64,000 nt of DNA from Lentzea sp. NBRC 102530 (GTDB lineage Bacteria > Actinomycetota > Actinomycetes > Mycobacteriales > Pseudonocardiaceae), in contig NZ_BSTF01000016.1 of NCBI RefSeq assembly GCF_030269365.1, positions 62,001-126,000 of the forward strand, written 5' to 3'. Numbering within the stretch: position 1 is the stretch's first letter; every line of letters starts with the position of its first letter. Under the pieces are notes generated by a model. It saw only the letters and a list, made by a program, of their open reading frames with translations, was not told where the DNA came from and searched no databases. Below, piece after piece: positions 24,390-48,818 of this stretch. Made by a program: the position numbers and the translations under genes.

Positions 24390-24411
24390 CAACGCAGTTG
24401 TATCTGCGTTG
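24390..24411. promoter_or_regulatory. 8-bp inverted repeat overlapping an ECF promoter
   Basis: CAACGCAG-TTGTAT-CTGCGTTG is a perfect repeat whose last two bases are the first two of the TGAACC -35 element at 24410. It lies in the divergent region between GntR and the anti-sigma paralogue and could be an operator for either. Confidence 0.45.
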
Positions 24412-24437
24412 AACCAACTTCCTCGACGGCTCGTTCT
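24410..24437 (+). promoter_or_regulatory. ECF (SigL-like) promoter of the anti-sigma paralogue
   Basis: TGAACC (24410-24415), 16-bp spacer, CGTTCT (24432-24437). Same -35, spacing and CGT core as the promoter of the ECF operon at 26874-26901. GGAGAAGGAG follows at 24469-24478, but the nearest starts after it give only short frames. Confidence 0.6.
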
Positions 24438-24532
24438 GAAGGTGTTGGTCACCGCTGCCCGCGGGACTGGAGAAGGAGAAATTTGAGTGCATCGTTCCGC
24501 GTAACCGTGTCCATAGCCGCGTCCGCCAGCGC

Positions 24533-25081
24533 ATGGCACCGAACGTCCTGGGCACCAACGAGTTGAACGAGAACGACATGCTGATGGAAGAACTGCCACC
24601 GGAGGCCGCGCTCGACGGGCCTCCACCGAACATGGACCACCTGCTGCAGCGCACGCTCGGCACGGTCCGCGAAGAGAGACAGCAGGCCGTGCGTCGCCGT
24701 GGACGCATCACGGCCCTGTCGTCGACCCTGATGGTCGCGGGCGTCCTCGCCGGGGGCGTCTGGCTCGGCCAGGGCATGGGGGTGGGCGGCACCGCCGGCG
24801 AGGTCCTGCAGGGGACCTCGGCGACAGGTGCGCACATGGCCGTGCAGGTCACCGACACCGAGGGTGGCCTGAGGCTCGTCGCCACGGTCGACGGGATGCA
24901 GGACGGGGAAGCCTGCTGGCTCGTCGTGCACACGAAGGACGGACGGACCTTCACCGCGGGCTCGTGGAGGGCGCACGAAGGTGAAGTCACGTTGGCCGGG
25001 TCCGCGATCGTGCGGGCGGAGGACGTCGCCGGGGTCAGCGTCGTCAACCACGACCGCGAGCCGCTGGTCACCGCGAACTGA
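24533..25081 (+). CDS. anti-sigma-factor paralogue lacking the zinc-binding domain
   Basis: A 182-residue protein that aligns by eye with the C-terminal three quarters of the anti-sigma factor at 27512-28219. Shared features in order: a proline-rich linker (ELPPEAALDGPPPNMDHLLQRTL versus EVPPEIMMDGPPEGGDLLLQRTL), a basic segment, one membrane helix (about 59-81), and the extracytoplasmic RskA-like domain (HMAVQVTDTEG, VDGMQDGEACWLVV, TFTAGSWRA, AIVRAEDVAGVSVVNHD). The HxxxCxxC sigma-binding module is absent; upstream in-frame sequence does not encode one. Start uncertain: ATG 24533 or ATG 24578, neither with a clear ribosome site. Its promoter matches that of the ECF sigma factor. It could act as a decoy or sensor without sigma binding, or be a decaying duplicate. 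Confidence 0.75.
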   Translation: MAPNVLGTNELNENDMLMEELPPEAALDGPPPNMDHLLQRTLGTVREERQQAVRRRGRITALSSTLMVAGVLAGGVWLGQGMGVGGTAGEVLQGTSATGAHMAVQVTDTEGGLRLVATVDGMQDGEACWLVVHTKDGRTFTAGSWRAHEGEVTLAGSAIVRAEDVAGVSVVNHDREPLVTAN

Positions 25082-25165
25082 GGTGGGTGGGCTTCCGCCG
25101 GACGGGTCATCCGCGGACGCCCGCCCACCACGGAGAGTTGTTCAGGGCACGGTTAGCCGACCGGC

Positions 25166-25195
25166 TTGACGCTCATTTGGAGCAATGTCAACATT
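25166..25195 (+). promoter_or_regulatory. Promoter and inverted repeat before the second GntR gene
   Basis: TTGACG (25166-25171) and CAACAT (25189-25194), 17 bp apart, with the inverted repeat AATGT-CA-ACATT (25184-25195) over the -10. The start codon is only 5 bases further on, implying a leaderless or near-leaderless transcript and an autoregulatory operator. Confidence 0.4.
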
Positions 25196-25200
25196 CGGAC

Positions 25201-25848
25201 ATGCCCCCTCCCGCAGTGAGACCCGTGGCCCGTCGCGGGGTCGCGGGAGAGGCCGCCGACCGCATCCGGGACGCGATCCTGGCCGGCGAGCTGGCCGCCG
25301 GCACCGCGTTGAAGGAGGTCGAGCTCGCGAGCGTGCTCGGGGTCAGCCGCGGGTCGGTGCGCGAAGGCCTGGTCGTGCTCGAGAGCGAGGGGCTCGTCGT
25401 CTCAGAGTGGCACCGCGGCACCTGGGTGCGCGAACTGACCCCGGACGACGTCGACGAGCTGTACACCCTGCGCACCGCGCTGGACGTCCTCGCGATGCGC
25501 ACCGCCGCCGCGAAGGGGTCCGGTTTCGGCCCGATCGACGAGGTCGTGAGGGCAATGGAACATGCCCGGACGGACACCGAACGGGTCGCGCTGGACATGG
25601 AGTTCCACGACGCCGTCTACGCCGCGACCGGCCACCGCAGGCTCCAGGAGGCGTGGCGGGCGATCCGCTGCCAGGTCCACCTCTTCCTGCTCGCGCGGGT
25701 CGCCGACGACCCCACCTACCAGGAGCTGGTCGTCCCGGAGCACGCCGGCCTGGCCGCCGTGCTGCGCGCGGGCGACCCCGGTGCGGCAGGGTGTGCGGCA
25801 GAGGAACACCTGCGCGGTTCCTCCGTGAAACTGGTGGAGAAGCGATGA
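25201..25848 (+). CDS. GntR family transcriptional regulator (FCD domain)
   Basis: FadR-type regulator of 215 residues. HTH at about residues 12-72 (ADRIRDAILAGELAAGTALKE, SVLGVSRGSVREGLVVLESEG, then the wing SEWHRGTWVRELT). The FCD domain shows the usual helices and ligand residues (LDMEFHDAVYAATGHRRLQE, VPEHAGLAAVLRAGD). ATG 25201 fits the family N-terminus; the frame extends upstream to 25087 without support. No catabolic gene is adjacent on the same strand: the next gene is a DUF1996 protein, so its target is unknown. Confidence 0.88.
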   Translation: MPPPAVRPVARRGVAGEAADRIRDAILAGELAAGTALKEVELASVLGVSRGSVREGLVVLESEGLVVSEWHRGTWVRELTPDDVDELYTLRTALDVLAMRTAAAKGSGFGPIDEVVRAMEHARTDTERVALDMEFHDAVYAATGHRRLQEAWRAIRCQVHLFLLARVADDPTYQELVVPEHAGLAAVLRAGDPGAAGCAAEEHLRGSSVKLVEKR

Positions 25849-25900
25849 GCCGGCGTGTTGAGACGCGGCACTTTGGTTTGCCCGGATCGATTGGCAGGCT

Positions 25901-26842
25901 GTGACCGTGGCCCGGAACAAACCGGCGACCGTCGCGGTCGCGGTGGTGGCCGTCCTCGTGGTCGTGGGTTCGGTCGTCCTGCTGCGCGGCACGTCCAACG
26001 GCGAGCCCGCGGCCGAGCAGTACGTCAGCGAGCTCGACCAGGTGATCACCGAACCGAAGACCGCGAGCGTCGTGATCAAGTGCGGCGCCAACGAGGAACG
26101 CCACCTCAACGCGGACAACCCGGTGGTCTCGCCCGGCATCCCGTTCGGCGCGCACCACACGCACGAGTACGTCGGCAACAGGTCGGCCGACGCGATGTCG
26201 ACCGACGCGTCCCTCGCGGCGTCGACCACGACGTGCGAGAACGACGACCTCTCGACCTATTACTGGCCGGTGCTGCGCCTGACCGACGGCGCGGGCCACG
26301 ACGCGCACGCGGACGGCGGCGGCCTGCACGGCAACACCGGCGAGGTGCTCGCCCCGAGGAGCGTCGAGATCCGCTACGACGGCAGCGCCACGAGCGACGT
26401 GCTGCCGATGCCGAGGTTCCTGCGCCTGATCACCGGCGACCCGGCCGCGTTCACCAACGACTACGGCCCGAACACGCGCGCCCGCTGGGGCTGCTCGGAC
26501 CAGCCGGGCCGGTACACGACGAAGTACCCGCTGTGCGGAAGCGCGACCACCCTGCGCACCTACGACTTCGGCAGCTGCTGGGACGGCAACAACAGGGACA
26601 GCGCCTCGCACCGCACGCACGTCGTGTTCCCGTTGCCGAGCGGCAACTGCCCCGCCAAGACGTTCCCCATTCCGCGGCTGCACATCACCGTGGGCTACGA
26701 CATCCCCGCGGGCCGGCCGTTCGCGATCGACTCCTTCCAGGAGGAGTTGCGTGATCCGGCGACCGACCACGGGATGGCCATCAACGCGATGCCGGAGGCG
26801 CGCATGGCGGAACTGGTCGGGTACCTCAACCGGTCCCGCTAA
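25901..26842 (+). CDS. DUF1996 domain-containing secreted or membrane-anchored protein
   Basis: A 313-residue protein with an N-terminal hydrophobic segment (TVAVAVVAVLVVVGSVVLL, about residues 9-28) acting as signal or anchor. The remainder looks like DUF1996, a domain of secreted fungal and actinobacterial proteins: PGIPFGAHHTHEYVGNRSADA, STYYWPVLRLTDG, LRLITGDP, WGCSDQPGRYTTKYPLCG, and FGSCWDGNN followed by ASHRTHVVFPLPSGNCP. Multiple histidines and cysteines (pairs around 61/107, 185/199/212) suggest metal binding and disulfides outside the cell. GTG 25901 is used; GTG 25907 is possible. Molecular function of the domain is not established. Confidence 0.85.
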   Translation: MTVARNKPATVAVAVVAVLVVVGSVVLLRGTSNGEPAAEQYVSELDQVITEPKTASVVIKCGANEERHLNADNPVVSPGIPFGAHHTHEYVGNRSADAMSTDASLAASTTTCENDDLSTYYWPVLRLTDGAGHDAHADGGGLHGNTGEVLAPRSVEIRYDGSATSDVLPMPRFLRLITGDPAAFTNDYGPNTRARWGCSDQPGRYTTKYPLCGSATTLRTYDFGSCWDGNNRDSASHRTHVVFPLPSGNCPAKTFPIPRLHITVGYDIPAGRPFAIDSFQEELRDPATDHGMAINAMPEARMAELVGYLNRSR

Positions 26843-26873
26843 CATCCGGCGTCTCTTTTTGGTTGAAACCCGT

Positions 26874-26901
26874 TGAACCGAAGCCCTCTGCCGCTCGTGT
26901 G
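26874..26901 (+). promoter_or_regulatory. ECF (SigL-like) promoter, autoregulatory
   Basis: TGAACC (26874-26879), 16-bp spacer, CGTGTG (26896-26901), matching from memory the SigL consensus TGAACC...CGT of Mycobacterium. It stands 62 bases before the ECF sigma gene, the usual position for self-activation. Confidence 0.7.
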
Positions 26902-26963
26902 ACGGCTGAGGTCTTGAACAGGACGCCCGCACGAGGTGTTCGCGGGCGGGGAGGAGTGGGTGG

Positions 26964-27515
26964 ATGGCGGCTTTGTTCTCCCGCAAACGGGAGACCGCGG
27001 CCGACGAGGCGCTGATCCGATCGCTCTACGAGGAGCACGGTCGGGCTCTGCTGGCCTACGCGACGCGGTTGACCGGTGATCGGGCGGCTGCCGAGGACGT
27101 GGTCCAGGAGACCCTGGTCCGAGCGTGGCGCCATCCCGACGCCCTCGTGAACGGCAAGGGATCGGTGCGCGGTTGGTTGCTGACCGTGGCGAGGAACATC
27201 GTCACGGACCGTGTGCGTGCGAAGGCGGCACGCCCGCAGGAGGTGGCCGAGTCCCCGGCGACGCCCCCCATCGAGCGCGACCACGCTGACCAGGTGGTTG
27301 ACTCGGTGGTGGTGCTCGAAGCGCTCGACAGGCTCTCGTCCGACCACCGCGACGTGCTGATGGAGATCTACTTCCGAGGCCGGAGCGTGACGGAGGCGGC
27401 GGAGGCGCTCGGGGTGCCACCTGGCACAGTGAAGTCGAGATCGTATTACGCGTTGCGAGCCTTGAGGGAGACCTTCGGAGGTCAGAAGGTCGCACTGAAG
27501 GGGGTGGCTGGATGA
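26964..27515 (+). CDS. ECF RNA polymerase sigma factor (SigL/SigK-like)
   Basis: Extracytoplasmic-function sigma factor of 183 residues. Region 2 spans about 20-90 (LYEEHGRALLAYATRLTGDRAAAEDVVQ, WRHPDALVNGKGSVRGWLLTVARNIVTD) and region 4 about 118-170 (LDRLSSDHRDVLMEIYFRGRSVTEAAEALGVPPGTVKSRSYYALRAL). (Segments quoted in parts; the order sigma2-linker-sigma4 is complete.) The gene overlaps its anti-sigma gene (ATGA), so both proteins are made in a fixed ratio. Promoters with the same pattern at 24410 and 48791 are probable targets. SigL of Mycobacterium tuberculosis, paired with the zinc protein RslA, is the nearest recalled comparison. Confidence 0.92.
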   Translation: MAALFSRKRETAADEALIRSLYEEHGRALLAYATRLTGDRAAAEDVVQETLVRAWRHPDALVNGKGSVRGWLLTVARNIVTDRVRAKAARPQEVAESPATPPIERDHADQVVDSVVVLEALDRLSSDHRDVLMEIYFRGRSVTEAAEALGVPPGTVKSRSYYALRALRETFGGQKVALKGVAG

Positions 27516-28219
27516 CCACGCAGCACGACCCGCAGCTGCTCGGTGCTTACGTTCTCGGAGCACTCGACGAGCAGGAGGTGCGCGACATGGACGAGCACCT
27601 GGCGTCCTGCCCCGAATGCAAGCGTGAACTCGAAGAGCTCCGCGACATGGAGGCGTTCCTCGGCGAGGTGCCTCCGGAGATCATGATGGACGGCCCGCCC
27701 GAGGGCGGTGACCTGTTGTTGCAGCGCACGCTCCGCCAGGTGCGCACCGAACGGGGCGGCGTCGCGAAACGCCGTCAGTTCGCGCTCGGTGCCGCGGCGG
27801 CCGTGGTGGCCGCGGTGGTGCTCGGAGCGGGAGTCTTCGTCGGCAAGGCCACGTCGCCCGATGCGAACGTCGCCTCTCCCACTCCGACGGTCGCACCCGA
27901 TCCGAGCGGTACCAGGCTCGCCACGTTCACCGACCCCGACACCAAGGCGTCGATGGCCGTCAAGGTCGTCCCCGCCGCCGGCTGGGTGCGGACGAACATG
28001 TCGATCAACGGCATCCCCGAGGGCGAGAAGTGCCGGATCTTCGTCGTGGCGAAGGACGGCAGCCGCCAGGAGGCGGGTTCCTGGGTGGTGTCCAAGAGGG
28101 GCGCCACCGAGGGCACGAACCTGGACGGATCAGCACTCGTCGCCCCCGCGGACGTGAAGTCCGTGGTGGTCGAGAACTTCGAGGGCAAGAAGTTCGTCGA
28201 GGTGCCGGTCCAGGCGTGA
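27512..28219 (+). CDS. transmembrane anti-sigma factor (ZAS domain, RskA-like C-terminus)
   Basis: Membrane-bound antagonist of the ECF factor encoded just upstream, 235 residues. The N-terminal zinc anti-sigma module has His29, Cys33 and Cys36 (HLASCPEC) plus the preceding helix LLGAYVLGALDEQEV. A linker leads to a single membrane helix (about 89-111) and an outer RskA-like domain (ASMAVKVVP, MSINGIPEGEKCRIFVVAK, EAGSWVVSKRG). Topology therefore is N-in, C-out: the zinc domain holds the sigma factor, and a signal outside or oxidation of the zinc thiols frees it. A shorter paralogue without the zinc module is encoded at 24533-25081. Confidence 0.92.
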   Translation: MTTQHDPQLLGAYVLGALDEQEVRDMDEHLASCPECKRELEELRDMEAFLGEVPPEIMMDGPPEGGDLLLQRTLRQVRTERGGVAKRRQFALGAAAAVVAAVVLGAGVFVGKATSPDANVASPTPTVAPDPSGTRLATFTDPDTKASMAVKVVPAAGWVRTNMSINGIPEGEKCRIFVVAKDGSRQEAGSWVVSKRGATEGTNLDGSALVAPADVKSVVVENFEGKKFVEVPVQA

Positions 28220-28224
28220 GCACG

Positions 28225-28262
28225 GATAATTGGGGCCGTCCTCCGGGGCGGCCCCAATTATC
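28225..28262 (+). terminator. Intrinsic terminator, perfect 14-bp stem
   Basis: GATAATTGGGGCCG (28225-28238) pairs with CGGCCCCAATTATC (28249-28262) around a 10-base loop, 5 bases after the anti-sigma stop, followed by TTCTTCCC. The right arm is also the start of a segment (GGCCCC..TTATC..TTCCCATGTC) repeated before 28653. Confidence 0.85.
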
Positions 28263-28270
28263 TTCTTCCC

Positions 28271-28609
28271 ATGTCATCTCACCTGTTCATCGGCGACCAC
28301 TGCTGGAACCAGTCCAGCGGCACCGTGCGCTGGGCGCTCGACGTGATCGCCGATCACGTCACGCACCCCGGGGCCGTCGCCGAGCTCAGGGAGTTCTCCG
28401 GCGGGCTGATCTTCGTGGAGGACTTCGGGCGCAGCTTCGGTCCGGAGGTCTCCGAGCAGATCGTGGAGGTCATCCGCACGAGGATCCGCCCGGCGGCGCT
28501 GGCCGAACCCGAGGGTGAGGTCCGCGACTACACGGTGCGGGTCGCCGACGAGCTCGTCGAGATGGCGAACCGGTGGCGCGGCTTCGCGATCGAGGCCGGG
28601 GAAGCCTGA
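28271..28609 (+). CDS. uncharacterised small protein, single copy of a locally repeated domain
   Basis: A 112-residue acidic protein without recognised family. It consists of one unit of about 95 residues that is also found twice in the next gene and once in the gene at 30321: an opening strand (FIGDHCWNQ), a tryptophan-containing helix (TVRWALDVIADHV), L-x-x-F-x-G-G-L-I-F-V, an acidic turn, an I-x-x-V-I-R-T helix and a closing helix LVEMANRW. No signal peptide or membrane segment. The ATG is 6 bases after a TATCTT -10-like element (28259-28264) and has no ribosome site, suggesting a leaderless transcript. Confidence 0.65.
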   Translation: MSSHLFIGDHCWNQSSGTVRWALDVIADHVTHPGAVAELREFSGGLIFVEDFGRSFGPEVSEQIVEVIRTRIRPAALAEPEGEVRDYTVRVADELVEMANRWRGFAIEAGEA

Positions 28610-28652
28610 AAACGAACGGTCCTTTCAGGACGGCCCCGTTATCGTCTTTCCC

Positions 28653-29327
28653 ATGTCCGGAACTTTCGTCGTTGATCGGGAAGACGGCCCCCACGGGTAC
28701 GAGGGCGAGATGTGGGACGTGCCGCGGTACGTGTTCTTCCGCGTCCTAGACCTGCTCGTGGACCAGCTGCGCGACGACGAGGTCTCGACCGCTCTGCGCG
28801 AGCTGCTCGACGGCGGCTACGCCTGGCTCGCCCTGACCTACTACACCCCGGAGCAGGGCGCTGAGGTCGTCCGCGCCATCCGCGAGGACCTCCCGGCCGC
28901 CGTCCGGGCCGCCTACCCGCCACCGGACCCGCACCACGTCGCCATGGGCGAGATGGTCGACGACCTGGTCGCGATCACGGACCGCTGGCTCGCCGGCACG
29001 CTGGTGTCCGCGACGGTCCGCTTCGAACGACCCGGCGAGCGCGGCTTCGAGATGTGGGAGGCGACCGTCGCCGAGGTCGGCTGGGTGCGCGACGCGCTCG
29101 CGCGCCACGTCGGCGAGGACCTGGCCGCCACGCTCGCCGCGCTCCCGCTGCGAGGCCCGGACTGGTTGTCGTTCAAGGACTTCAGCGAGGACGAGGTGCG
29201 CGAGCTGCTGCGCGCGCTCCGCGAGGACGTGGCGGGCGAGGCACCGGCCGACCGGCGGGAGTTGATCGCCGAGCTGGTCCGCGTGGCCACCGAGTGGCAG
29301 GCGGCGCGCCCGGGTCTCACGGCCTGA
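28653..29327 (+). CDS. uncharacterised protein with two copies of the local repeated domain
   Basis: A 224-residue soluble acidic protein containing two tandem units. Unit 1 (about 1-112): MWDVPRYVFFRVLDLLVDQL, LLDGGYAWLALTYYTPEQGAE, VVRAIREDL, MVDDLVAITDRWLAG. Unit 2 (about 113-222): MWEATVAEVGWVRDALARHV, LRGPDWLSFKDFSEDEVREL, LRALREDV, ELIAELVRVATEWQA. Shared core: W near the start, a helix ending in a hydrophobic residue, G-x-x-W-L-x-(F/L), an acidic E-(D/E)-(E/Q) turn, R-x-(L/I)-R-E-D and a final T-(D/E)-W. The start region GGCCCC..TTATC..TTTCCCATGTC copies that of the previous gene, so the two arose by duplication including upstream DNA. TATCGT ends 7 bases before the ATG. It overlaps the convergent oxidoreductase gene by 11 bases. 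Confidence 0.7.
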   Translation: MSGTFVVDREDGPHGYEGEMWDVPRYVFFRVLDLLVDQLRDDEVSTALRELLDGGYAWLALTYYTPEQGAEVVRAIREDLPAAVRAAYPPPDPHHVAMGEMVDDLVAITDRWLAGTLVSATVRFERPGERGFEMWEATVAEVGWVRDALARHVGEDLAATLAALPLRGPDWLSFKDFSEDEVRELLRALREDVAGEAPADRRELIAELVRVATEWQAARPGLTA

Positions 29328-30261
29328 GCACCACCTTCCCCGCCGTGGCCCGCGACTCCAGCGCCTCGTGCGCCCGGGCCGCGTCCTCCAGCGCGAACGG
29401 CGGGTGGACGGAGGGCACGAACCGTCCGCTCGCCAGCCCCGCCATCGATTCGTCCTCCAGCGCGCGCAACCCTCTCCGCATCAGGTTCGGTCCCAACGCG
29501 ACAGTCGCGGTGAGACTGTTGGCGAACAACGCCTCGGTGCTGATCGGCGTCGACGACCCGGACGCCCAGCCGTAGATGATCTGCCGGCCACCTGGCCCGA
29601 GGGTCTTCAACGCCTGCGCCCCGGCGTCGCCGCCGACGCCGTCCAGCACGACCGTCATGTCCTTGAGCCCGTCCGACCAGCCGGGCCGGGTGTAGTCGAT
29701 GGCGGCGTCGGCGCCGTTGTCCATCACCAGGTCGAGCTTGTCGCCGCTCGCGAGCCCGATGACCCGCGCGCCGACGTTGCGCGCCTCCTGCACGAACAAC
29801 GTCCCCATGCCGCCCGCCGCCGACAGGACGAGCACGACGTCGTCCTCGGTGAGCTTCGCGGCGTCGAGCACGCCGACGACCGTGCGGCCGGTGCCGATCA
29901 TCGCGACCGCCGCCTCGAACGACACGGAGTCGGGCAGCGCGTGCAGCGCGCCGACGTTCGCCACCGCGAGTTCGGCGTAGCCGCCGTTGGCGGTGCCGAG
30001 GTGCGCGACGACCCGGCGGCCGAGCCAGTCCGGGGTGACGTCCGCGCCGAGGGCCGTCACGACCCCGGCGACCTCGCGGCCCGGTGTCATCGGGAACTCG
30101 ACGGGGCCGAAGGCGCCCTTGCGGATGGTGGTGTCGACGAGGTGGACGCCGGCGGCGGCCACGGTGACGCGGACCTGGCCCGCCGCGGGCTCCGGATCGG
30201 GAACCTCCTCGAAGCGCAGGTTCTCCGCCGGGCCGAACTCGTACTGCCGAATCGCGAACAT
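29317..30261 (-). CDS. zinc-type alcohol dehydrogenase/quinone oxidoreductase family protein
   Basis: NADPH-dependent medium-chain reductase of the QOR branch, 314 residues. The catalytic domain begins MFAIRQYEFGPAENLRFEEVPDPEP and contains MTPGREVAGVVTALG; the Rossmann part has VLVLSAAGGMGTLFVQEA (glycine-rich loop AAGGMG near residue 150), GARVIGLASG, and VVLDGVGGDA. The zinc-ligand cysteines of alcohol dehydrogenases are lacking, as in quinone oxidoreductases. ATG 30261 fits the family start; GTG 30306 lies within its promoter. That promoter has a 19-bp spacer and an inverted repeat, so control by a MerR-type activator is likely. A role in reducing quinones or other electrophiles is inferred. 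Confidence 0.9.
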   Translation of the reverse strand: MFAIRQYEFGPAENLRFEEVPDPEPAAGQVRVTVAAAGVHLVDTTIRKGAFGPVEFPMTPGREVAGVVTALGADVTPDWLGRRVVAHLGTANGGYAELAVANVGALHALPDSVSFEAAVAMIGTGRTVVGVLDAAKLTEDDVVLVLSAAGGMGTLFVQEARNVGARVIGLASGDKLDLVMDNGADAAIDYTRPGWSDGLKDMTVVLDGVGGDAGAQALKTLGPGGRQIIYGWASGSSTPISTEALFANSLTATVALGPNLMRRGLRALEDESMAGLASGRFVPSVHPPFALEDAARAHEALESRATAGKVVLRP

Positions 30262-30268
30262 GCGGCTG

Positions 30269-30299
30269 ACGCTACGAACTCCACTTAACTGGAGGTCAA
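30269..30299 (-). promoter_or_regulatory. MerR-type promoter with 19-bp spacer
   Basis: On the minus strand TTGACC (30299-30294), exactly 19 bp, TAGCGT (30274-30269). The spacer contains CTCCA-N6-TGGAG (30279-30294). Over-long spacers with a dyad between -35 and -10 are the mark of MerR/SoxR-activated promoters. Confidence 0.65.
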
Positions 30300-30320
30300 C
30301 AGCCACTAGGCTGCGGGCCC

Positions 30321-31007: not shown

Positions 31008-31022
31008 TCGGTGGCACGTAGT

Positions 31023-31053
31023 CACACGACTGTGCTAAAAACACAGTCGTGTG
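31023..31053 (+). promoter_or_regulatory. 12-bp inverted repeat over the -10 and start codon of the acylase gene
   Basis: CACACGACTGTG (31023-31034) and CACAGTCGTGTG (31042-31053) are exact reverse complements with loop CTAAAAA. TAAAAA (31036-31041) is a good -10 exactly 7 bases before the GTG start (31049), which itself lies in the right arm. Either an operator or an RNA hairpin hiding the start; it may also terminate the gene ending at 31007. Confidence 0.6.
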
Positions 31054-40556: not shown

Positions 40557-40671
40557 TTGCTTTGCGCGAGGTGTGCGCGGCGCGTCATCATTGTTCCATG
40601 ATTCAAGCTGACGAATGGGCCGGAGCGCCCTCCAAGCTCTGACCAGCAGGTTCACATTCTCCTATTGTTTG

Positions 40672-40694: not shown

Positions 40695-40699
40695 TGTTT

Positions 40700-40771: not shown

Positions 40772-40890
40772 CGTGGCCCGGTCTTCGTGGGGTGGGCCGG
40801 GCCCTCCCGCACGGTGGTCCATGTCAGACGGACCCAAAGAATCTTCGAAAACTTCGCCCGAATGGTCTAGGCGCCAGTTACGCTCTGCGA

Positions 40891-41553: not shown

Positions 41554-41556
41554 GAC

Positions 41557-41582
41557 GTTTGGTCCCTGTGAAGCGGGGGTAG
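41557..41582 (+). promoter_or_regulatory. SigF/SigB-like promoter of the DUF4383 gene
   Basis: GTTT (41557-41560), 16-bp spacer, GGGTAG (41577-41582), 35 bases before the ATG. Same pattern as the sites around the SigF genes. Confidence 0.6.
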
Positions 41583-41617
41583 CCCGCCGGGCACGGAAAC
41601 GGAGCCTGGAGGGCGAC

Positions 41618-42238: not shown

Positions 42239-42254
42239 CACCCCTGTCCGGACG

Positions 42255-42299
42255 CAGACACGCCGTGAGAGCCCACATGCGGCTCTCACGGCGCGTCTG
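42255..42299 (+). terminator. Terminator hairpin after the DUF4383 gene
   Basis: Arms 42255-42273 and 42281-42299 pair over 19 bases with one mismatch, loop CACATGC, followed by TGTTTC. Placed 16 bases after the stop. Confidence 0.8.
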
Positions 42300-42312
42300 T
42301 TTCGATGTCGCG

Positions 42313-42993
42313 ATGCCTGACGAGTTGCTGACCCGGGAAGTGCTGATCACGTGGGGGACGGCGGCCGCCGCGTTCCTGGCCGTCGCGCTGCACGGGATCT
42401 GGCGGGTCACCCGCAACGTCATCACCATCGCCCACGAGGGCGGTCACGCCCTGCTGGCCGTGCTGACCGGACGGCGCCTCAGCGGCATCAAGCTGCACTC
42501 GGACACCTCCGGCCTCACCGTCTCGCGCGGCAAGCCCCGCGGCCCCGGCATGGTGCTCACCGCCCTCGCCGGTTACATCGCCCCGTCGTTGCTCGGCTTC
42601 GGCGCGGCCGTGCTCATCACCAACGAGAAGATCCAGCTGATGCTCTGGATCAGCATCGGGTTCCTCGCCGCCATGCTGATCATGATCCGCAACGTCTTCG
42701 GCGTGCTGTCCATCATCATCACCGGCGGCATCTTCTTCTTCGTCTCCTTCTACGCCTCCCTGGAGGTCCGGGACGCGGCCGCGTACGTCTTCGCGTGGTT
42801 CCTGTTGCTCGGAGGCGTGCGGCCGGTGTGGGAGCTCCAGGTCAAGCGGTGGCGCCGGCAGGCCCCGAAGTCCGACGCGGACCAGCTCGCGTGGCTCACC
42901 GGGGTGCCCGCGCTGGGCTGGGTGACGTTCTTCGGCCTGGTGAGCCTGGCCTCACTGGTGGGCGGGGGAGCGCTGCTGCTCGGGCGGTGGTGA
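42313..42993 (+). CDS. M50-like membrane metalloprotease family protein
   Basis: A 226-residue polytopic protein with the zinc motif HEGGH at residues 41-45 inside or next to a membrane helix (RNVITIAHEGGHALLAVLTG), as in M50/site-2-protease-like proteins (peptidase_M50B type). Five or six hydrophobic segments follow. KPRGPGMVLTALAGYIAPSLLGF is the conserved second region of the family. No PDZ domain is present. ATG 42313 lacks a strong ribosome site. Substrates unknown; such proteins cleave membrane-embedded regulators, and the nearby anti-sigma factors are mentioned only as a thought. Confidence 0.82.
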   Translation: MPDELLTREVLITWGTAAAAFLAVALHGIWRVTRNVITIAHEGGHALLAVLTGRRLSGIKLHSDTSGLTVSRGKPRGPGMVLTALAGYIAPSLLGFGAAVLITNEKIQLMLWISIGFLAAMLIMIRNVFGVLSIIITGGIFFFVSFYASLEVRDAAAYVFAWFLLLGGVRPVWELQVKRWRRQAPKSDADQLAWLTGVPALGWVTFFGLVSLASLVGGGALLLGRW

Positions 42994-43054
42994 AGAACCG
43001 TTTTGCCACGGGTGAAATACTGAGGTGAACAAGCCGTGGTGAGAGGTGGGTTCA

Positions 43055-44788
43055 GTGCTGCGTGGGGATGTCGGGCTGGAACTGGGCCAGCGGGTCGCGC
43101 AGGCGCTGCGCGTCGCCCTGGACGTGGACATCACCGCCGAGGAAGCGCTGATCCGACCGTCCAACCGAGACGGTGCCGACTACCAGTGCAACGTCGCGAT
43201 GAGCCTGGCGAAGAAGGTCGGCCGCAACCCGCGTGAGGTCGCGACGCTGATCGTCGAGCACCTCGACGCGGCCGACGCGATCGAGACGCCGGAGATCGCC
43301 GGCCCCGGCTTCATCAACCTGAAGCTCAAGCGCGAGTGGCTGGAGGCCCAGGCCGCCCGGCTGCTGGGCGACGAGCGCCTCGGCGTGCCGCGGACAGAGG
43401 AGCCGCGCCGCATCGCGATCGACTACAGCAGTCCCAACGTGGCCAAGGAGATGCACGTCGGCCACCTGCGCTCGACGATCATCGGCGACGCGTTCTGCCG
43501 CCTGCTCACGTTCGCGGGCCACGAGGTCATCCCGCACAACCACCTGGGCGACTGGGGCACCCCGTTCGGGATGCTCATCGAGCACCTGACCGACGAGGGC
43601 CGCGGCGCCGACCACGAGATCAGCGACCTCAACGCGTTCTACCAGCAGGCCCGCCAGAAGTTCGACAACGAACCGGGCTTCGCCGACCGGGCCCGCCGCC
43701 GCGTCGTCCTGCTCCAGGGCGGCGACGAGGCCACCCTGGCGCTCTGGCACGAACTCGTGGGCGAGTCCCAGCGCCACTTCAACCAGGTCTACGAGCTGCT
43801 GGAGATCGGCCTGAGCGCCGACGACAACTACGGCGAGAGCTTCTACAACCCGTACCTCGCCGACACGATCACCGAGCTCCAGGGCAAGGGCCTGATCGAG
43901 ACCAGCGACGGCGCGCTCTGCGTGTTCCCGCCCGGCTTCACCAACCGCGAGGGCGACCGCCTCCCGCTGATCGTCCGCAAGAGCGACGGCGGCTACGGCT
44001 ACGCCACCACGGACTTCGCGACCGTCCGCTACTGGGTCCGCGACCGCAAGGTCGACGAACTGATCTACGTCGTCGGCACCCCGCAGTCCCAGCACTTCCA
44101 GATGATCTTCGCCACCTCCAAGCAGGCGGGCTGGCTCGACGACGCCCACACCGCCGTCCACACCGGCTTCGGCACCATCCTGGGCAGCGACGGCAAGACC
44201 ATCCGCACCCGCGCGGGCGGCACGATCAAACTCATCGACCTGCTCACCGAGGCCGTCGAGAACTCCTACAAGGTCATGCCCGAGTCGTCCGAAGTGGAGG
44301 GTGAGGAGAAGGACGCCCTAGCCCGCACCATCGGCCTGGGCGCCGTGAAGTACGCGGACCTCTCCAACGACCGCGAGAAGGACTACGTCTTCACCTGGGA
44401 GAAGATGCTCGCCACCACCGGCGACACCTCGGTGTACATCCAGTACGCCAACGCCCGCATCCTCTCCATCGTCCGCAAGGTGGGCCGCGAGGCCCCGCAG
44501 GACGCACCCCTGGTGCTCCAGGAACAGGCCGAACGCGACCTGGCCCTCAAGCTCCTCCAGCTCCCGACCGCCATCCAGGCGGCGATCGACGAGCTCGCGC
44601 CGCACAAGCTCACCGGCTACCTGTTCGAGACCGCCACCGCGTTCTCGACCTTCTACAACAACTGCCCGGTGGCGACGGCGGAGTCGCAGGAGCTGCAGGA
44701 CTCGCGCCTGCACCTGCTCACGCTGACGTCGCGGGTGCTGACGCTGGGCCTGTCGCTGCTGGGCATCGGGGCGCCCGAAAGGCTCTGA
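43055..44788 (+). CDS. argS: arginyl-tRNA synthetase
   Basis: Class I aminoacyl-tRNA synthetase charging tRNA-Arg, 577 residues. Seen: the N-terminal Add-1 domain, SPNVAKEMHVGHLRSTIIGD with the HVGH form of the HIGH motif near residue 130, NHLGDWGTPFGML, LIYVVGTPQSQHFQMIF, and the anticodon-binding DALR domain ending NCPVATAESQELQDSRLHL. As in many ArgS proteins the KMSKS loop is divergent (SDGKTIRTRAGG). GTG 43055 is taken because AGAGGTGGG lies 6-12 bases upstream; GTG 43046 would add three residues. It stands alone; lysA/thrA-type neighbours common in other actinobacteria are absent. Confidence 0.96.
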   Translation: MLRGDVGLELGQRVAQALRVALDVDITAEEALIRPSNRDGADYQCNVAMSLAKKVGRNPREVATLIVEHLDAADAIETPEIAGPGFINLKLKREWLEAQAARLLGDERLGVPRTEEPRRIAIDYSSPNVAKEMHVGHLRSTIIGDAFCRLLTFAGHEVIPHNHLGDWGTPFGMLIEHLTDEGRGADHEISDLNAFYQQARQKFDNEPGFADRARRRVVLLQGGDEATLALWHELVGESQRHFNQVYELLEIGLSADDNYGESFYNPYLADTITELQGKGLIETSDGALCVFPPGFTNREGDRLPLIVRKSDGGYGYATTDFATVRYWVRDRKVDELIYVVGTPQSQHFQMIFATSKQAGWLDDAHTAVHTGFGTILGSDGKTIRTRAGGTIKLIDLLTEAVENSYKVMPESSEVEGEEKDALARTIGLGAVKYADLSNDREKDYVFTWEKMLATTGDTSVYIQYANARILSIVRKVGREAPQDAPLVLQEQAERDLALKLLQLPTAIQAAIDELAPHKLTGYLFETATAFSTFYNNCPVATAESQELQDSRLHLLTLTSRVLTLGLSLLGIGAPERL

Positions 44789-44912
44789 GGCCAGGGGTTG
44801 CCGGGTCGGGTGGGGTGCGGAGCTCCGGGGCCCGAGCCTCAGGCCGTTGCCCGCCCGAGCAGGTGACCGGAAGTCCTGTGCGCCCTTCGCGAGCCCGCTT
44901 CACGTTGCTGAA

Positions 44913-44967
44913 CCGCACGCGGGGCGCTTTCGTTCGGGCACACCGCACGAAAGCGCCCCGCGTGCGG
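44913..44967. terminator. Perfect 21-bp inverted repeat
   Basis: Arms 44913-44933 and 44947-44967 are exact reverse complements with a 13-base loop. This is the longest perfect hairpin I found in the window. It lies 125 bases after argS and probably terminates it. TGAACC-N16-CGTTCG (44909-44936), the ECF promoter pattern, overlaps its left arm. Confidence 0.7.
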
Positions 44968-45055
44968 CGAGGAAACGTGGGGTGCGCTCGAGCGAGTGGG
45001 CGGAGGGCCGCCTGCCCCAGGTGACGGGACCAGCACACTCGAACGGTGGGAACAG

Positions 45056-45081
45056 GTTTACCGTCCCCGACCCAGAGGTAC
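45056..45081 (+). promoter_or_regulatory. Near-consensus SigF-like promoter of whiB
   Basis: GTTT (45056-45059), 16-bp spacer, AGGTAC (45076-45081), one base off GGGTAC. The ATG is 43 bases downstream. Confidence 0.5.
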
Positions 45082-45124
45082 GCAGAGATCGCAACTCTTA
45101 CCCCCTAGTCGCCAGGGAGTCGCG

Positions 45125-45442
45125 ATGACCTGCACCACCCGCCTGCCCAAGCCGGTCACCGACGTCTGGGACTGGCAGATGGACGGCCTCTGCCGGGGCG
45201 AGAACAGTGCGATCTTCTTCCACCCCGACAACGAGCGGGGCTACGCCAGGGCGGCCAGGGAGGACAGGGCCAAGGCGATCTGCGGCCACTGCCCGGTGCT
45301 GGCGCAGTGCCGCGCCCATGCCCTGGAGGCCCAGGAGCCGTACGGCGTGTGGGGCGGCATGGGCGAGGACGAACGGCGCCAGATCGTGTCAGCGGCCCGG
45401 CGCCGTGTCCGCGTTCACTCCTCCAGCACGTCCCGCAGCTGA
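45125..45442 (+). CDS. WhiB family iron-sulfur transcription factor (WhiD/WhiB3-like)
   Basis: A 105-residue Wbl protein that carries a [4Fe-4S] cluster and binds sigma factor region 4. Cluster cysteines: Cys23, Cys53, Cys56 and Cys62 (CGHCPVLAQC). The GVWGGM turn and a basic tail (RRRVRVHSS) follow. The N-terminus LPKPVTDVWDWQMDGLCRG closely resembles WhiB3 of mycobacteria and WhiD of Streptomyces (L-P-x-P-x-x-D-x-W-x-W-Q). GGGAG lies 5 bases before the ATG. Its end overlaps the convergent sigF-type gene by 28 bases, and a SigF-like promoter is upstream, placing it in the same stress/sporulation circuit. Confidence 0.92.
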   Translation: MTCTTRLPKPVTDVWDWQMDGLCRGENSAIFFHPDNERGYARAAREDRAKAICGHCPVLAQCRAHALEAQEPYGVWGGMGEDERRQIVSAARRRVRVHSSSTSRS

Positions 45443-46248
45443 CGCAGCGTCTTCGCGAGCAATCGCGAGACGTGCATCTGGGAGATGCCGACCTTCTGCG
45501 CGATCTGCGTCTGGGTCATGTTGCCGAAGAAGCGCATGATCACGATCTTGCGTTCGCGCTCCGGCAGCTTCTCCAGCAACGGGTGCAGCGCCTCGCGCTG
45601 CTCGATCATCGCGATCTCGGGGTCTTCCTCGCCGATGGTGGACCCCAGCGAGATCGACGAGTCCTCGCTCATCAGCATGTCGTCCAAAGACGCGCTCTGG
45701 TAAGCGTTTCCGGCCGCGAGTCCTTCGTGGATCTCCTCACGCGACAGTCCCAGGTGCTCCGCCAGTTCCGACGGCGTCGGCGCGCGGCCGAGCGACTGCG
45801 ACAGGCGTGAGGTGCCCGCGTTGATCGCGAGGTGCAGCTCCTTGAGCCGCCTCGGCATCCGCACCGACCAGCTGGAGTCGCGGAAGTACTTCCGCACCTC
45901 ACCCATGATCGTCGGCACCGCGAACGACAGGAAGTCGCTGCCGCGCTCGGGGTCGAAGCGGTCGACGGCGTTGATCAGGCCCACGGTCGCCACCTGCACG
46001 AGGTCCTCGTGCGGTTCGCCGCGGTGCCCGAAGCGTCGCGCGATGTGCTGCGCCACGGGCAGGTGCTCGGTGACGAGTCTGTCCCGCAGCGTTTCGCGCG
46101 CCGCGCCCGCGGGAGTGGCCGCGAGTTCCGCGAAGAGCGGGGCCAGGTGGTCGTAGTCACCCGAGCGGGAGGACTTCTTCTCCTCCTGCGCGGACTCCTC
46201 CGACGTGGCCGGCTCTTCGGTCTTGGTGATCTCTTCCGATCCGGTCAC
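45415..46248 (-). CDS. sigF: RNA polymerase sigma factor, SigF/SigB-type
   Basis: Complete alternative sigma factor of 277 residues. An acidic N-terminal stretch (about 45 residues) precedes region 2 (AQHIARRFGHRGEPHEDLVQ, GLINAVDRFDPERGSDFLSFAVPTI, GEVRKYFRDSSWSVRMPRRLKEL), region 3 (RAPTPSELAEHLGLSREEIHEGL) and region 4 (LLEKLPERERKIVIMRFFGNMTQTQIAQKVGISQMHVSRLL), each quoted partially. The GTG start overlaps the rsbW-type stop (GTGA), so factor and antagonist are coupled. A promoter of its own class precedes rsbW, giving positive feedback. It resembles the truncated factor at 1-592, so the genome has at least two of this family. Confidence 0.93.
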   Translation of the reverse strand: MTGSEEITKTEEPATSEESAQEEKKSSRSGDYDHLAPLFAELAATPAGAARETLRDRLVTEHLPVAQHIARRFGHRGEPHEDLVQVATVGLINAVDRFDPERGSDFLSFAVPTIMGEVRKYFRDSSWSVRMPRRLKELHLAINAGTSRLSQSLGRAPTPSELAEHLGLSREEIHEGLAAGNAYQSASLDDMLMSEDSSISLGSTIGEEDPEIAMIEQREALHPLLEKLPERERKIVIMRFFGNMTQTQIAQKVGISQMHVSRLLAKTLRQLRDVLEE

Positions 46249-46679
46249 GCATCCACCGCCCCTGCCGTGGACTTCACGAGGGCGATGTGCACCACGAACC
46301 CTTCGGTCTCGTCGACTCTCGTCTGCACGGAGTCGACGAGCGCCGTGAGCACGCGCCACCCGAAGCTGCCCTCGTCCGGCCCGGAGCCGGCCTTCGCGGA
46401 CACCTTGGCCGAGACGTGCACGGCGCCCCTGTCGTCCACCGCGAAGTGGCAGCTGAGCACCGCGTCGTGGGCCGCGAGCGTGATCAACGTCGAGCAGGTC
46501 TCGTCCACCGCGAGCTTCAGGTCCTCGATCGAGTCGAGGTCGAAGTCCTGTCGCATGGCGATGTCCGCCGCGACCGCACGCACGATGGAGAGCTGCGTGG
46601 GATCCGCGGCCATCCGGAGCTCGACGCCTGACAGTTGAGTCACAGCCACCTCGTAGTCCGTTCTGCTGAAGGCCGGCAT
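46245..46679 (-). CDS. rsbW: anti-sigma factor, RsbW/UsfX-type ATP-binding protein
   Basis: A 144-residue GHKL (HATPase_c) protein that sequesters the sigma factor encoded just downstream. Seen: VELRMAADPTQLSIVRAVAADIA, the N-box region DLKLAVDETCSTLITLAAHD, and SFGWRVLTALVDSVQTRVDE. N-box residues are less canonical (ETCST rather than EAxxN), and the G-box is weak, as in mycobacterial UsfX, so kinase activity may be lost while sigma binding persists. The ATG is 8 bases after the GGGTAC -10, meaning the transcript may begin at the start codon; GTG 12 residues on is an alternative. Its partner anti-anti-sigma is probably the STAS protein at 47452. Confidence 0.88.
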   Translation of the reverse strand: MPAFSRTDYEVAVTQLSGVELRMAADPTQLSIVRAVAADIAMRQDFDLDSIEDLKLAVDETCSTLITLAAHDAVLSCHFAVDDRGAVHVSAKVSAKAGSGPDEGSFGWRVLTALVDSVQTRVDETEGFVVHIALVKSTAGAVDA

Positions 46680-46687
46680 GTCCTGCC

Positions 46688-46713
46688 GTACCCGAATCGT
46701 TCTCGTCTTACAC
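46688..46713 (-). promoter_or_regulatory. SigF-like promoter of rsbW-sigF
   Basis: Minus strand: GTGT (46713-46710), 16 bp, GGGTAC (46693-46688). Transcription would start at or next to the rsbW ATG (46679). It lies back to back with a plus-strand copy at 46726. Confidence 0.65.
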
Positions 46714-46725
46714 GCGCAGTCGCAC

Positions 46726-46751
46726 GTGTAGTCGCGCCGGCCCCTGGGAAA
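46726..46751 (+). promoter_or_regulatory. SigF-like promoter of the ATPase-STAS gene
   Basis: GTGT (46726-46729), 16 bp, GGGAAA (46746-46751). The -35 elements of the two divergent promoters form an ACACG-N10-CGTGT dyad (46710-46729... continuing to 46729). Confidence 0.5.
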
Positions 46752-46793
46752 TCCTCTGCTGGAAGCAGACGAGGTTCACCCGGGAGGAGCGTT

Positions 46794-47489
46794 GTGCTGG
46801 TGCATCAGGACTTCCTCGCTCTCCGCTTCCCGGCGGACGCGCACGAAGTGGGCCCGGTGAGGCACCGCCTGCGCACGTGGCTGAAGGACAGCGGACTCAC
46901 CGACGACGAGGCGAGCGCCCTCGTCCTCGCGGCCAGCGAGGCGATCAACAACTCCGTCGAGCACGCCTACCCCGCCGGGTCGGACGGCACCGTCGACGTG
47001 CGGGCCCGCGTGGAACCGGACGGTTCGGCCCGTGTCGACGTCACCGATCGCGGCCAGTGGCGCACACCGCCTCCCGCGCTCACGATGCGCGGCCGGGGAC
47101 TCCTGCTCATGCGGGAGAGCGTGGACGAGGTCGAGTTGGCCCGCAGGGCGAGCGGTACGACCGTGCGCCTGCGCCTGACCCCCTCGGCCGGGGTGACCCC
47201 GGCGTCCGCGATCGCGCCCGAGTGCGATGTGAAGGTCCACGATTCCTCCTCGGGCGTTGTGGCGGTGGTCTGCGGCGACGTCCCGGTGGAAGCCGCTCCG
47301 TCGTTGCGCCGCACCCTCACCACGGCGGCGAGGGGCGGAACCGTGCCGCTCACCGTGGACCTCAGCGGCCTCGGCCCCGAGTGCGGCGGCGTGGAGATGG
47401 CTCTCCAGGACGTCGCGGAGGCGTTGCGGCAGGCGGGCAACCGCCTGGTCGTCAGCTCAGCGCCGAGTCCACCGACGAGTGGAGGCTGA
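46794..47489 (+). CDS. HATPase (RsbW-like) and STAS-like domain fusion protein
   Basis: A 231-residue protein with two parts. Residues 1-125: a well-preserved GHKL anti-sigma kinase (FPADAHEVGPVRHRLRTWL, ALVLAASEAINNSVEHAYPAG with the N-box EAINN, VDVTDRGQWRTPP with D-x-G, and MRGRGLLLMRESVDEVEL with the G-box). Residues 145-230: a small domain with SSGVVAVVCGDVPVEAAPSLRR, PLTVDLSGLGPECGGVEM and ALRQAGNRLVV, the strand-helix pattern of a STAS domain, although the usual phosphorylated Ser is not obvious. Having kinase and antagonist-like domains in one chain suggests intramolecular control. GTG 46794 follows GGGAGGAG. Divergent from rsbW-sigF; the 3' end overlaps the STAS gene by 38 bases. Confidence 0.82.
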   Translation: MLVHQDFLALRFPADAHEVGPVRHRLRTWLKDSGLTDDEASALVLAASEAINNSVEHAYPAGSDGTVDVRARVEPDGSARVDVTDRGQWRTPPPALTMRGRGLLLMRESVDEVELARRASGTTVRLRLTPSAGVTPASAIAPECDVKVHDSSSGVVAVVCGDVPVEAAPSLRRTLTTAARGGTVPLTVDLSGLGPECGGVEMALQDVAEALRQAGNRLVVSSAPSPPTSGG

Positions 47490-47808
47490 AGACCTCACCC
47501 AGTCCGGTGGCCTCCAGCGGACGCGTCACGCTCCGCGCGGTCGCCACGACCTTCAGGGTCGCGCTCTGCTGCTGGGCGAGTTTCGCGGCCTCGACGAGGA
47601 CGGCGAGCCCGGCGGAGCCGAGGAACGTCACGCCGGTCATGTCGACGACGAACACACCGCCGTCACCGAGACCGTTGACGAGCGATTCGCGCAACACGGG
47701 CGCGGACACCATGTCGACCTCACCGGACACGGCGAGGACGGTGACTCCGGGCGCCGGCTGCCGCACCTTCAGCTCGATCTGCTCCGCACGTGGGTCCTGC
47801 ACAGTCAC
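47452..47808 (-). CDS. STAS domain anti-sigma factor antagonist (RsbV-like)
   Basis: Anti-anti-sigma factor of 118 residues. It reads IELKVRQPAPGVTVLAVSGEVDMVSAP, then VFVVDMTGVTFLGSAGLAVLVEAAKLA, where the serine in FLGSAGL (about residue 66) is the site phosphorylated by RsbW-type kinases, and ends with a helix (ATGLGEVFSLHSSVDSALS). In its unphosphorylated form it should bind the anti-sigma factor and release the sigma factor. GTG 47808 has GGGAG 7 bases upstream; an earlier GTG would add six residues. A near-perfect SigF promoter lies 120 bases upstream, so it probably forms a positive-feedback arm. Confidence 0.9.
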   Translation of the reverse strand: MTVQDPRAEQIELKVRQPAPGVTVLAVSGEVDMVSAPVLRESLVNGLGDGGVFVVDMTGVTFLGSAGLAVLVEAAKLAQQQSATLKVVATARSVTRPLEATGLGEVFSLHSSVDSALS

Positions 47809-47930
47809 CGAAGTACTCCCTTTCACGGACAGGGAGCCGCCACGCAGCGGCCCCGACGCGGCTGCTGGCTCAACCGCTGCGGACACCACCGTACGGGAGT
47901 GGCCGCTCGACAGGACAGGTCGTGTGGTCC

Positions 47931-47956
47931 GTACCCGGACAACACTTGGTTCAAAC
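47931..47956 (-). promoter_or_regulatory. SigF-like promoter of the STAS gene
   Basis: Minus strand: GTTT (47956-47953), 16 bp, GGGTAC (47936-47931). Best match to the SigF consensus in the window. It overlaps the last codons of the upstream ANTAR gene. Confidence 0.65.
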
Positions 47957-48622
47957 GCGGATCGCGTCCCACAGTTTCCGCGCGACCCCGAACGCCTCGC
48001 CCGGCGCGGCGACCACCTCCTCGGCTCTGTCCTCCAGCGTGCCGCCGACGACCAGCACCAACGCCGTGGCCACGTCACGGAGCTTCACGTTGGCGTGCTG
48101 ACTGGCTCTGACCAGCAGTTCGAACGCCTCGCCCGGCGCGCACGGACGCGCCCCCATCACGAGTCCCTTGGCCTGCTCGATGTAGCGGCGGTGCTGGACC
48201 ATCCGCACCATCTGGTCGGCGCGCAGCACCTCGCCCGCGCAGAACTCGACCACCGAGGCGGCCGTCGCGACGAGCGGCTCCATCTCCTCTATCGCCTTCA
48301 GGTCCTCCAGGCGCGGCGGGTGGTCCAGGTAGACCGTGAGCACCACCGGCCCGCTGTCACCCCAGCTGCCGGGCACCGCGATCACGTGCAGACCACCGAC
48401 CTCCCCCGAGGACTGCCGCTCGTCGCGGGAGGCCTCGACGAGCGGCCCCTCGCCGGCGTCCAGCTGGGCCTGGTCGAGGTCGGCCGCCACGCCGACCGAA
48501 CGCAGCCGCTGAGCGCCGGGCCAGATGCTCAACCCCACCCCGGGGCAACCGTCCATTTGGGAGCACAGGTGCGTCATCAAGCGGCTGAGCAGCTCTTCTC
48601 CGTACTTCACCTGGGATTCCAC
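47951..48622 (-). CDS. GAF-ANTAR domain transcription antiterminator-type regulator
   Basis: A 223-residue regulator. The N-terminal 140 residues have a GAF-like composition (VGLSIWPGAQRLRSVGVAADLDQAQLDAGEGPLVEA, where 'xxQxxxGEGPxxEA' is typical of this group). The C-terminal ANTAR domain is seen in MVQHRRYIEQAKGLVMGARPCAPGEAFELLVRASQHANVKLRDVA, with the three-helix RNA-binding pattern ending near residue 200; the canonical A-x-G-x-x-M is AKGLVM. ANTAR proteins bind paired RNA hairpins to prevent termination. No such dual hairpin was found next to the gene. The signal is unknown; this GAF type often lacks a haem or nucleotide pocket. Confidence 0.88.
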   Translation of the reverse strand: MESQVKYGEELLSRLMTHLCSQMDGCPGVGLSIWPGAQRLRSVGVAADLDQAQLDAGEGPLVEASRDERQSSGEVGGLHVIAVPGSWGDSGPVVLTVYLDHPPRLEDLKAIEEMEPLVATAASVVEFCAGEVLRADQMVRMVQHRRYIEQAKGLVMGARPCAPGEAFELLVRASQHANVKLRDVATALVLVVGGTLEDRAEEVVAAPGEAFGVARKLWDAIRV

Positions 48623-48790
48623 GGTAAGAGGTTAGGCCGGGCAGAAGACGAGCACGAGCCGTGCGGTCATCGACGAACGACGAACGGTTGCGCAGGCAAG
48701 GACCGGGAGATCCGTTCCGCTTCGGGCCCGAACAGCTCGGCGCGCCGATCGATCCATCCAACGCTCAGGATCCACATCACGTACGTGTTC

Positions 48791-48818
48791 TGAACCACAG
48801 TCGGACAGAATTCGTTTC
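48791..48818 (+). promoter_or_regulatory. ECF (SigL-like) promoter before the 71-residue protein gene
   Basis: TGAACC (48791-48796), 16 bp, CGTTTC (48813-48818). Identical -35 and spacing to the promoters at 24410 and 26874. The palindrome CACGTACGTG lies just upstream (48778-48787). Confidence 0.55.

Follow-up and report, generated by a model that had tools for sequence, protein, structure and literature searches.

A candidate SigL-type regulon in Lentzea that includes an RslA paralogue lacking the anti-sigma domain

Extracytoplasmic function (ECF) sigma factors are as a rule autoregulated in a simple way and each paired with a single anti-sigma factor of their own. SigL, whose −35 element is TGAACC, falls in the ECF19 group of these factors. 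The present work concerns a stretch of 64,000 nucleotides from Lentzea sp. NBRC 102530 (hereafter the window, meaning this whole stretch), which encodes a SigL-type ECF sigma factor, an adjacent RslA-type anti-sigma factor and a nearby RslA paralogue lacking the anti-sigma domain, with the same promoter-like pattern upstream of both the sigma operon and the paralogue. In Mycobacterium tuberculosis, the SigL/RslA pair responds to oxidation via a zinc site, as described in PMC2877774, and the targets of SigL named in PMC6372665 include sigL, pks10 and Rv1139c. PMC10449499 presents the site-2 protease Rip1 as acting on RslA and counts SigL among the self-upregulating sigma factors.

The Lentzea locus resembles SigL/RslA in that SigL (6dv9) is the closest solved sigma factor, the zinc domain of the anti-sigma factor matches RslA (3hug_B), the two genes are adjacent, and their probable autoregulatory promoter has a −10 element starting with CGTG. 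It differs in that Asp60 of the sigma factor is replaced by Asn, in the use of CGTT beside CGTG, and in a proposed regulon containing the truncated RslA paralogue and lipoproteins of family PF03640. The AS19-type pair SigK/RskA is a more distant likeness: RskA_N matches the anti-sigma factor weakly, at E 0.0023 and under the cut-off, and SigK is the second PDB match of the sigma factor, yet at 6e-13 compared with 8.9e-39 for SigL; moreover, RskA reportedly does not depend on a zinc motif (PMC7406223), and the Lentzea anti-sigma factor has one. The PhyR-NepR-EcfG system, which governs the general stress response of alphaproteobacteria, likewise has a sigma/anti-sigma pair that is modulated by a degenerate homologue of one of its members, according to PMC8103513. 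There, however, titration of the anti-sigma factor falls to a domain resembling a sigma factor, while in Lentzea a sigma-induced homologue of the anti-sigma factor without its sigma-binding domain would, by analogy, take the modulating place. A literature survey by titles and the openings of abstracts, which left subscription papers mostly uncovered, turned up neither a published anti-sigma homologue without a sigma-binding domain nor published ECF work in Lentzea. The features of the window that bear on the proposed regulon are the following.

26874..26898, + strand: probable autoregulatory promoter of the sigma/anti-sigma operon, TGAACC-N16-CGT(GT), in 24/24 Lentzea genomes and 19/20 sister-genus loci
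26964..27515, + strand: SigL-type ECF sigma factor (NF007227, PDB 6dv9)
27512..28219, + strand: RslA-type zinc anti-sigma factor (zf-HC2, HxxxCxxC)
24410..24434, + strand: candidate SigL-type promoter of the paralogue, TGAACC-N16-CGT(T), in 24/24 Lentzea genomes and 16/20 sister-genus loci
24578..25081, + strand: RslA paralogue without the anti-sigma domain, with a short, presumably cytoplasmic stub, one hydrophobic (transmembrane) helix and a predicted beta-sandwich ectodomain
48791..48815, + strand: candidate Lentzea-specific promoter, TGAACC-N16-CGT(T), over a probably older conserved upstream element
48876..49091, + strand: 71-residue Pseudonocardiaceae protein, predicted to form four strands and a helix, in 191/249 family genomes

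The original prediction placed four matches to TGAACC-N16-CGT in this DNA. All four are present on the + strand, starting at 24410, 26874, 44909 and 48791, and the one at 44909 lies in a hairpin as had been described. By chance 0.51 matches are expected in the window, and four were reached in 0/100 shuffles. The sigma operon, the paralogue and the gene of the 71-residue protein each have a correctly oriented upstream match, whose start lies 90 bp from the sigma ATG at 26964, 85 bp from the ATG of the 71-residue gene at 48876, and 123 bp 5′ of an ATG at 24533 in the paralogue reading frame. In the Lentzea set, made up of the window's own genome and 23 further genomes, each of the three genes has TGAACC-N16-CGT upstream in 24/24 cases. 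The flank of the −10 element varies by gene, being CGTGT for the sigma operon, CGTT for the paralogue, and CGTT in 22/24 genomes for the 71-residue gene.

The conservation extends beyond Lentzea for the sigma operon and the paralogue. The sister set consists of the 20 genomes ranked directly after Lentzea for the sigma factor (81–94% identity), from Saccharothrix, Actinosynnema and Umezawaea; the family survey covered 249 genomes, in 106 of which the sigma factor was matched at E ≤ 1e-55. A site 5′ of the sigma gene in every Lentzea genome and in 19/20 sister loci is the usual sign of autoregulation, and the sigma factor very probably drives both its own operon and the paralogue. Within Lentzea both boxes of the sigma promoter are invariant, with one of 16 spacer positions invariant and 18 distinct spacers; the boxes of the paralogue promoter are also invariant, with 3/16 spacer positions invariant and again 18 distinct spacers. 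A second copy of the motif stands at the place of the paralogue in 16/20 sister loci, where paralogue and site are mostly present or absent together: 14 of these sites precede an intact paralogue, one (L304) precedes a frame-broken one, and one (L308) is found with the paralogue gone. No paralogue is detectable in 5/20 sister loci; L317–L320 also have no second site, and three of these four keep the sigma promoter.

The sigma factor scores 222.7 bits against NF007227 (cut-off 202), the model of PRK09645, which we take to be SigL. With SigL also the top PDB match, its sequence identifies it as a SigL-type factor. Counted along the 6dv9 alignment, His54 is kept in all 24 Lentzea and all 13 sister sequences examined, and every one of them has Asn in place of Asp60. 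The −10 element of SigL is CG-TGN(C/A)AG, with T−12 and G−11 read by His54 and Asp60, according to PMC6372665; the change of Asp60 to Asn with His54 kept would fit the mixture of CGTG and CGTT −10 elements seen here. The adjoining anti-sigma factor matches zf-HC2 and RslA 3hug_B (E 9.8e-6), and a transmembrane helix can be read from its sequence. An RslA open reading frame with HxxxCxxC adjoins the sigma gene in 38/40 loci, a count that is not an independent test, since the motif itself was used for picking the frame.

The part of the paralogue that aligns to RslA comprises the ectodomain, a single hydrophobic helix and a stub next to the membrane (DGPP...LLQRTL..VR.ER). The paralogue lacks about the first 47 residues of RslA, which form the zinc anti-sigma domain, and HxxxCxxC occurs in 0/38 paralogues (24 from Lentzea and 14 from the sister genera), in keeping with its original description as zinc-less. 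By its sequence the protein is a homologue of only the stub, transmembrane helix and ectodomain of RslA, and the name anti-sigma factor should not be applied to it. In a tree of 20 paralogue and 20 RslA ectodomains (20 of 38 each), the two kinds are split on one branch with support 99/97. This split fits a single duplication followed by domain loss, which the tree does not prove, because its root is unknown and the branches among the outgroup RslA sequences are long. A cysteine motif in the ectodomain is found in 37/38 paralogues, with a single cysteine altogether in 32/38, and in 30/38 RslA sequences by a looser pattern. The structure model of the paralogue, built from an input of only two sequences, gives an eight-strand sandwich ectodomain with a predicted local distance difference test (pLDDT) score of about 84–93 by blocks; compared with the PDB it yields weak superoxide dismutase-like beta-sandwich matches, none at E ≤ 0.001.

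The start of the paralogue deserves comment, as its open reading frame could begin at 24533. The 5′ region shifts frame via small indels among the Lentzea genomes, while the ATG at 24578 is accompanied by ATGCTGATGGA or a near variant in 24/24. This common sequence, set against the changing frame of what precedes it, makes ATG 24578 the likelier start. One further feature lies in this region.

24483..24566, + strand: short upstream open reading frame with a TTG start after a strong Shine-Dalgarno-like sequence, GGAGAAGGAG, and a stop 11 nt before ATG 24578

Both the frame and the length of this short open reading frame vary between Lentzea species; it could be a leader, a remnant of the lost N-terminus or a means of translational coupling.

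The regulon was predicted to be small, a description that proves too narrow. For a 387-residue lipoprotein with six PF03640 stretches, encoded outside the window (L028), the motif followed as CGTGT stands before every one of the 20 orthologues found, of which 10 are from sister genera; 28 genomes were searched, eight of which gave no match at the threshold. Here the region up to 800 bp above the match was covered, and several matches begin inside the protein. Within Lentzea a second PF03640 lipoprotein (L026) has the motif in 4/5 close orthologues, and an SsgA-like protein (L136) has it in 5/5 close orthologues (86–95%) among six Lentzea genomes, with widely differing spacers. The nearest relative of L136 in the sixth of these genomes (53%) is without the motif, as are the SsgA-like genes at all 18 sister-genus loci compared (35–42% identity). 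The window's own genome has the motif before two SsgA-like genes (L136, site 1519–1543; L157, site 1503–1527), the second of which was assigned on visual inspection and its resemblance to L136 and has the site in another Lentzea genome, G002, as well. Both are of the sporulation and cell division type and hint at a link of this sigma type to development.

A related pattern, TGAACC-N16-CGTA, stands 5′ of other PF03640-type lipoprotein genes, about 235–315 bp before the match. It is seen at sister-genus loci L348, L350, L352, L354–L356, L359–L361 and L369, and at L367 in Lentzea. These sites suggest that there is a sister ECF sigma factor whose preference at −10 is shifted.

Across the genome, TGAACC-N16-CGTK has 78 matches in 9.53 Mb, of which 28 are intergenic and 20 promoter-placed, that is, followed within 200 bp by a start on the same strand in the gene calls of a custom codon-usage caller. 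The density of N16 matches is 4–5 times higher between genes than within them, with 88–90% of the sequence taken as coding. The conditions under which the original prediction was to be refuted thus gave a mixed outcome: the pattern is denser outside coding sequence than in it, but the excess is not specific to N16, since all 28 matches of the spacing control N17 were classified and 15 are intergenic, with 8 promoter-placed. The control N19, whose codon phase equals that of N16, has 96 matches, and of the 30 classified 5 are intergenic and 2 promoter-placed. The promoter-placed share of N16 differs from that of N19 (p 0.02) and not from that of N17 (p 0.71) or of both pooled (p 0.17). Since the 20 promoter-placed matches for N16 compare with 8 for N17 and an extrapolated figure of about 6 for N19, about one third of the promoter-placed N16 matches in the genome may be due to chance. 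The pattern by itself is weak promoter evidence: as the controls also yield chance promoter-placed matches, its counts were rejected as proof, and it is conservation that carries the case.

The regulon core proposed here, comprising the sigma operon, the paralogue and the PF03640 lipoprotein under the SigL-type factor at 26964–27515, is given a probability of roughly 0.82. In the circuit envisaged, RslA (27512–28219) would hold the sigma factor at the membrane until an envelope or redox signal frees it. The freed sigma factor would then transcribe its own operon, the truncated paralogue and the PF03640 lipoproteins, and in Lentzea also the SsgA-like protein and, probably, the 71-residue protein. 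Synthesis of the paralogue would await induction and, if the predicted topology is right, place it in the same membrane as RslA. It would there offer an RslA-like ectodomain and juxtamembrane stub to whatever signal or protease inactivates RslA, while being unable to hold the sigma factor. As it accumulates, it might divert the signal, so that RslA is spared and the response is shut off. Such a role as a damping decoy is plausible, at somewhat less than even odds. More tentative still is the full proposal that the sigma factor induces the membrane-bound sensor half of its own anti-sigma factor as a decoy receptor that times the destruction of the inhibitor, an arrangement kept in Lentzea, Saccharothrix and Umezawaea. 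If true, a conserved and probably co-regulated anti-sigma homologue without a sigma-binding domain would be a new element of such circuits and would offer a way to probe the termination of envelope signals. The lipoproteins, SsgA-like protein and 71-residue protein of the proposed regulon would also point to possible SigL-type control outside the mycobacteria.

Several observations weigh against these proposals. The promoter-placed fraction of N17 matches (8/28) is as high as that of N16 (20/78). One sister genome, G222, whose sigma factor is 81% identical, has no motif 5′ of the sigma gene, and of 20 more distant sigma loci (69–82% identity), three show the strict motif in the 600 bp covered: in two it lies no more than 100 bp from the match start, in the third at −350. 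The second site at L308 is retained although the paralogue is gone, and the loss or breakage of the paralogue in some sister genomes implies that it is not essential to the circuit. The regulon as a whole is drawn from sequence. The genome also contains at least 57 scored ECF-like matches, and another ECF factor could read the motif. That a different, paralogous factor does so, the sigma factor at 26964–27515 being merely one of its targets, appears improbable. The number of ECF-like matches favours it, and a related specificity may exist, given the CGTA sites before other PF03640 lipoprotein genes; yet CGTG/T and CGTA split the sites into two classes, the site stands 5′ of the sigma gene itself in nearly all loci compared, and SigL is reported, in PMC10449499, to raise its own expression. 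Another doubtful, though serious, possibility is that the paralogue has no role in sigma control, being either a duplicate in decay or simply an envelope protein. Its broken frame in one sister locus, its absence from detection in five of 20 and the frame-shifted 5′ region within Lentzea would agree with decay, whereas its separation from RslA on one branch, the retained ectodomain and LLQRTL..VR.ER stub motif, and the site kept in all Lentzea genomes and most sister loci speak for a maintained gene. The paralogue might also amplify the response, by removing a stabilising ligand from RslA or by forming mixed oligomers, perhaps via the ectodomain cysteine, that hasten the loss of RslA. The cysteine motif common to both kinds of protein and the co-induced lipoproteins, which could be such ligands, make this conceivable, and would be equally consistent with damping. 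Amplification is considered rather unlikely; the damping decoy is the preferred role.

The place of the 71-residue gene in the regulon is weighed separately. The protein, counted in the family at E ≤ 1e-6, has no Pfam or NCBIfam match, and its model (pLDDT 73) has no PDB match at E ≤ 0.001. The original prediction made it a would-be new regulon member. The motif is indeed present in 24/24 Lentzea genomes, as said above, but within 500 bp of the gene it is absent, even in a relaxed form, from 13/13 sister-genus loci, in contrast to the sigma operon and the paralogue. The sigma factor of these 13 genomes is 89–94% identical in 12 and 81% in one, so that the motif does not occur wherever the sigma factor is conserved. 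Other loci of the family have the strict motif in 0/6 cases and in 1/19 (one misplaced region dropped). Among named genomes it is found at 9/9 Lentzea loci and at 1/54 others, the lone non-Lentzea match being in Goodfellowiella, with a different sequence and at −47. The sequence CCACAGTC-N3-CAGAATC and, further downstream, GGATAACGCC are common to Lentzea and most sister loci, exact or changed, and probably represent an older promoter on which TGAACC and CGT are superimposed in Lentzea. The spacer is unusually conserved, with 8/16 positions invariant and nine distinct spacers, which is a further point against membership, because the older overlapping element may account for part of the conservation of this site.

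It is thus conceivable, if somewhat unlikely, that the site is a chance match retained by its overlap with the older promoter and that the gene lies outside the regulon, as the sister-genus loci, the shared older sequences, the conserved spacer and the third of promoter-placed genome matches expected by chance would have it. Against this, among the columns outside the sister consensus, 7/7 motif columns are invariant in Lentzea compared with 18/51 others (p 0.0016, neighbouring columns being non-independent). The 71-residue gene is regarded as a plausible and rather likely member of the regulon, confined to Lentzea. Its 5′ region also contains a near-palindrome, GACATCCCTGGTGTC, at 48847–48861; a perfect palindrome, GACATCCCTGATGTC, is found in 16/23 other Lentzea genomes, and the aligned sister-genus loci are not palindromic there.

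Two further features of the window complete the picture.

25901..26842, + strand: DUF1996 gene, flanked by the paralogue and the sigma operon, with a homologue in 20/20 sister-genus loci
44909..44967, + strand: dispersed hairpin repeat holding the fourth match, not a promoter by present evidence

The DUF1996 gene lies directly 5′ of the sigma operon and is without a TGAACC-N16-CGT of its own in the window.

Sites in the window's own genome were also compared with one other Lentzea genome, G002. Two sites, L163 and L002, have spacers identical to those of L185 and L210 in G002, and one site of the L163/L002 pair sits 5′ of a gene that, judged by eye, resembles ftsH. Conservation this complete suggests a different type of element; L002 gave no tRNA or Rfam match. 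A further candidate, L015, was rejected as a regulon member, with a tRNA-Ser on the opposite strand.

The match upstream of whiB, which had been listed as a fourth occurrence, was rejected as a promoter. Its last base is also that of the left arm of a 21-bp hairpin (44913–44933 / 44947–44967), and TGAACCGCACGCGGGG..TTTCGTTCG recurs with similar flanks at two other places in the genome, which makes the match at 44909 part of a dispersed repeat. The dispersed hairpin repeat thereby creates chance matches to the ECF pattern. The repeat is palindromic and reads, with variation, CTTCACGTTGCTGAACCGCACGCGGGG..TTTCGTTCG..CGTGC.GC..GGAAACGTG; at least three copies are present in the genome, at 44896–44985 of the window, at 1487–1576 of L011 (reverse complement) and at 1513–1602 of L147.

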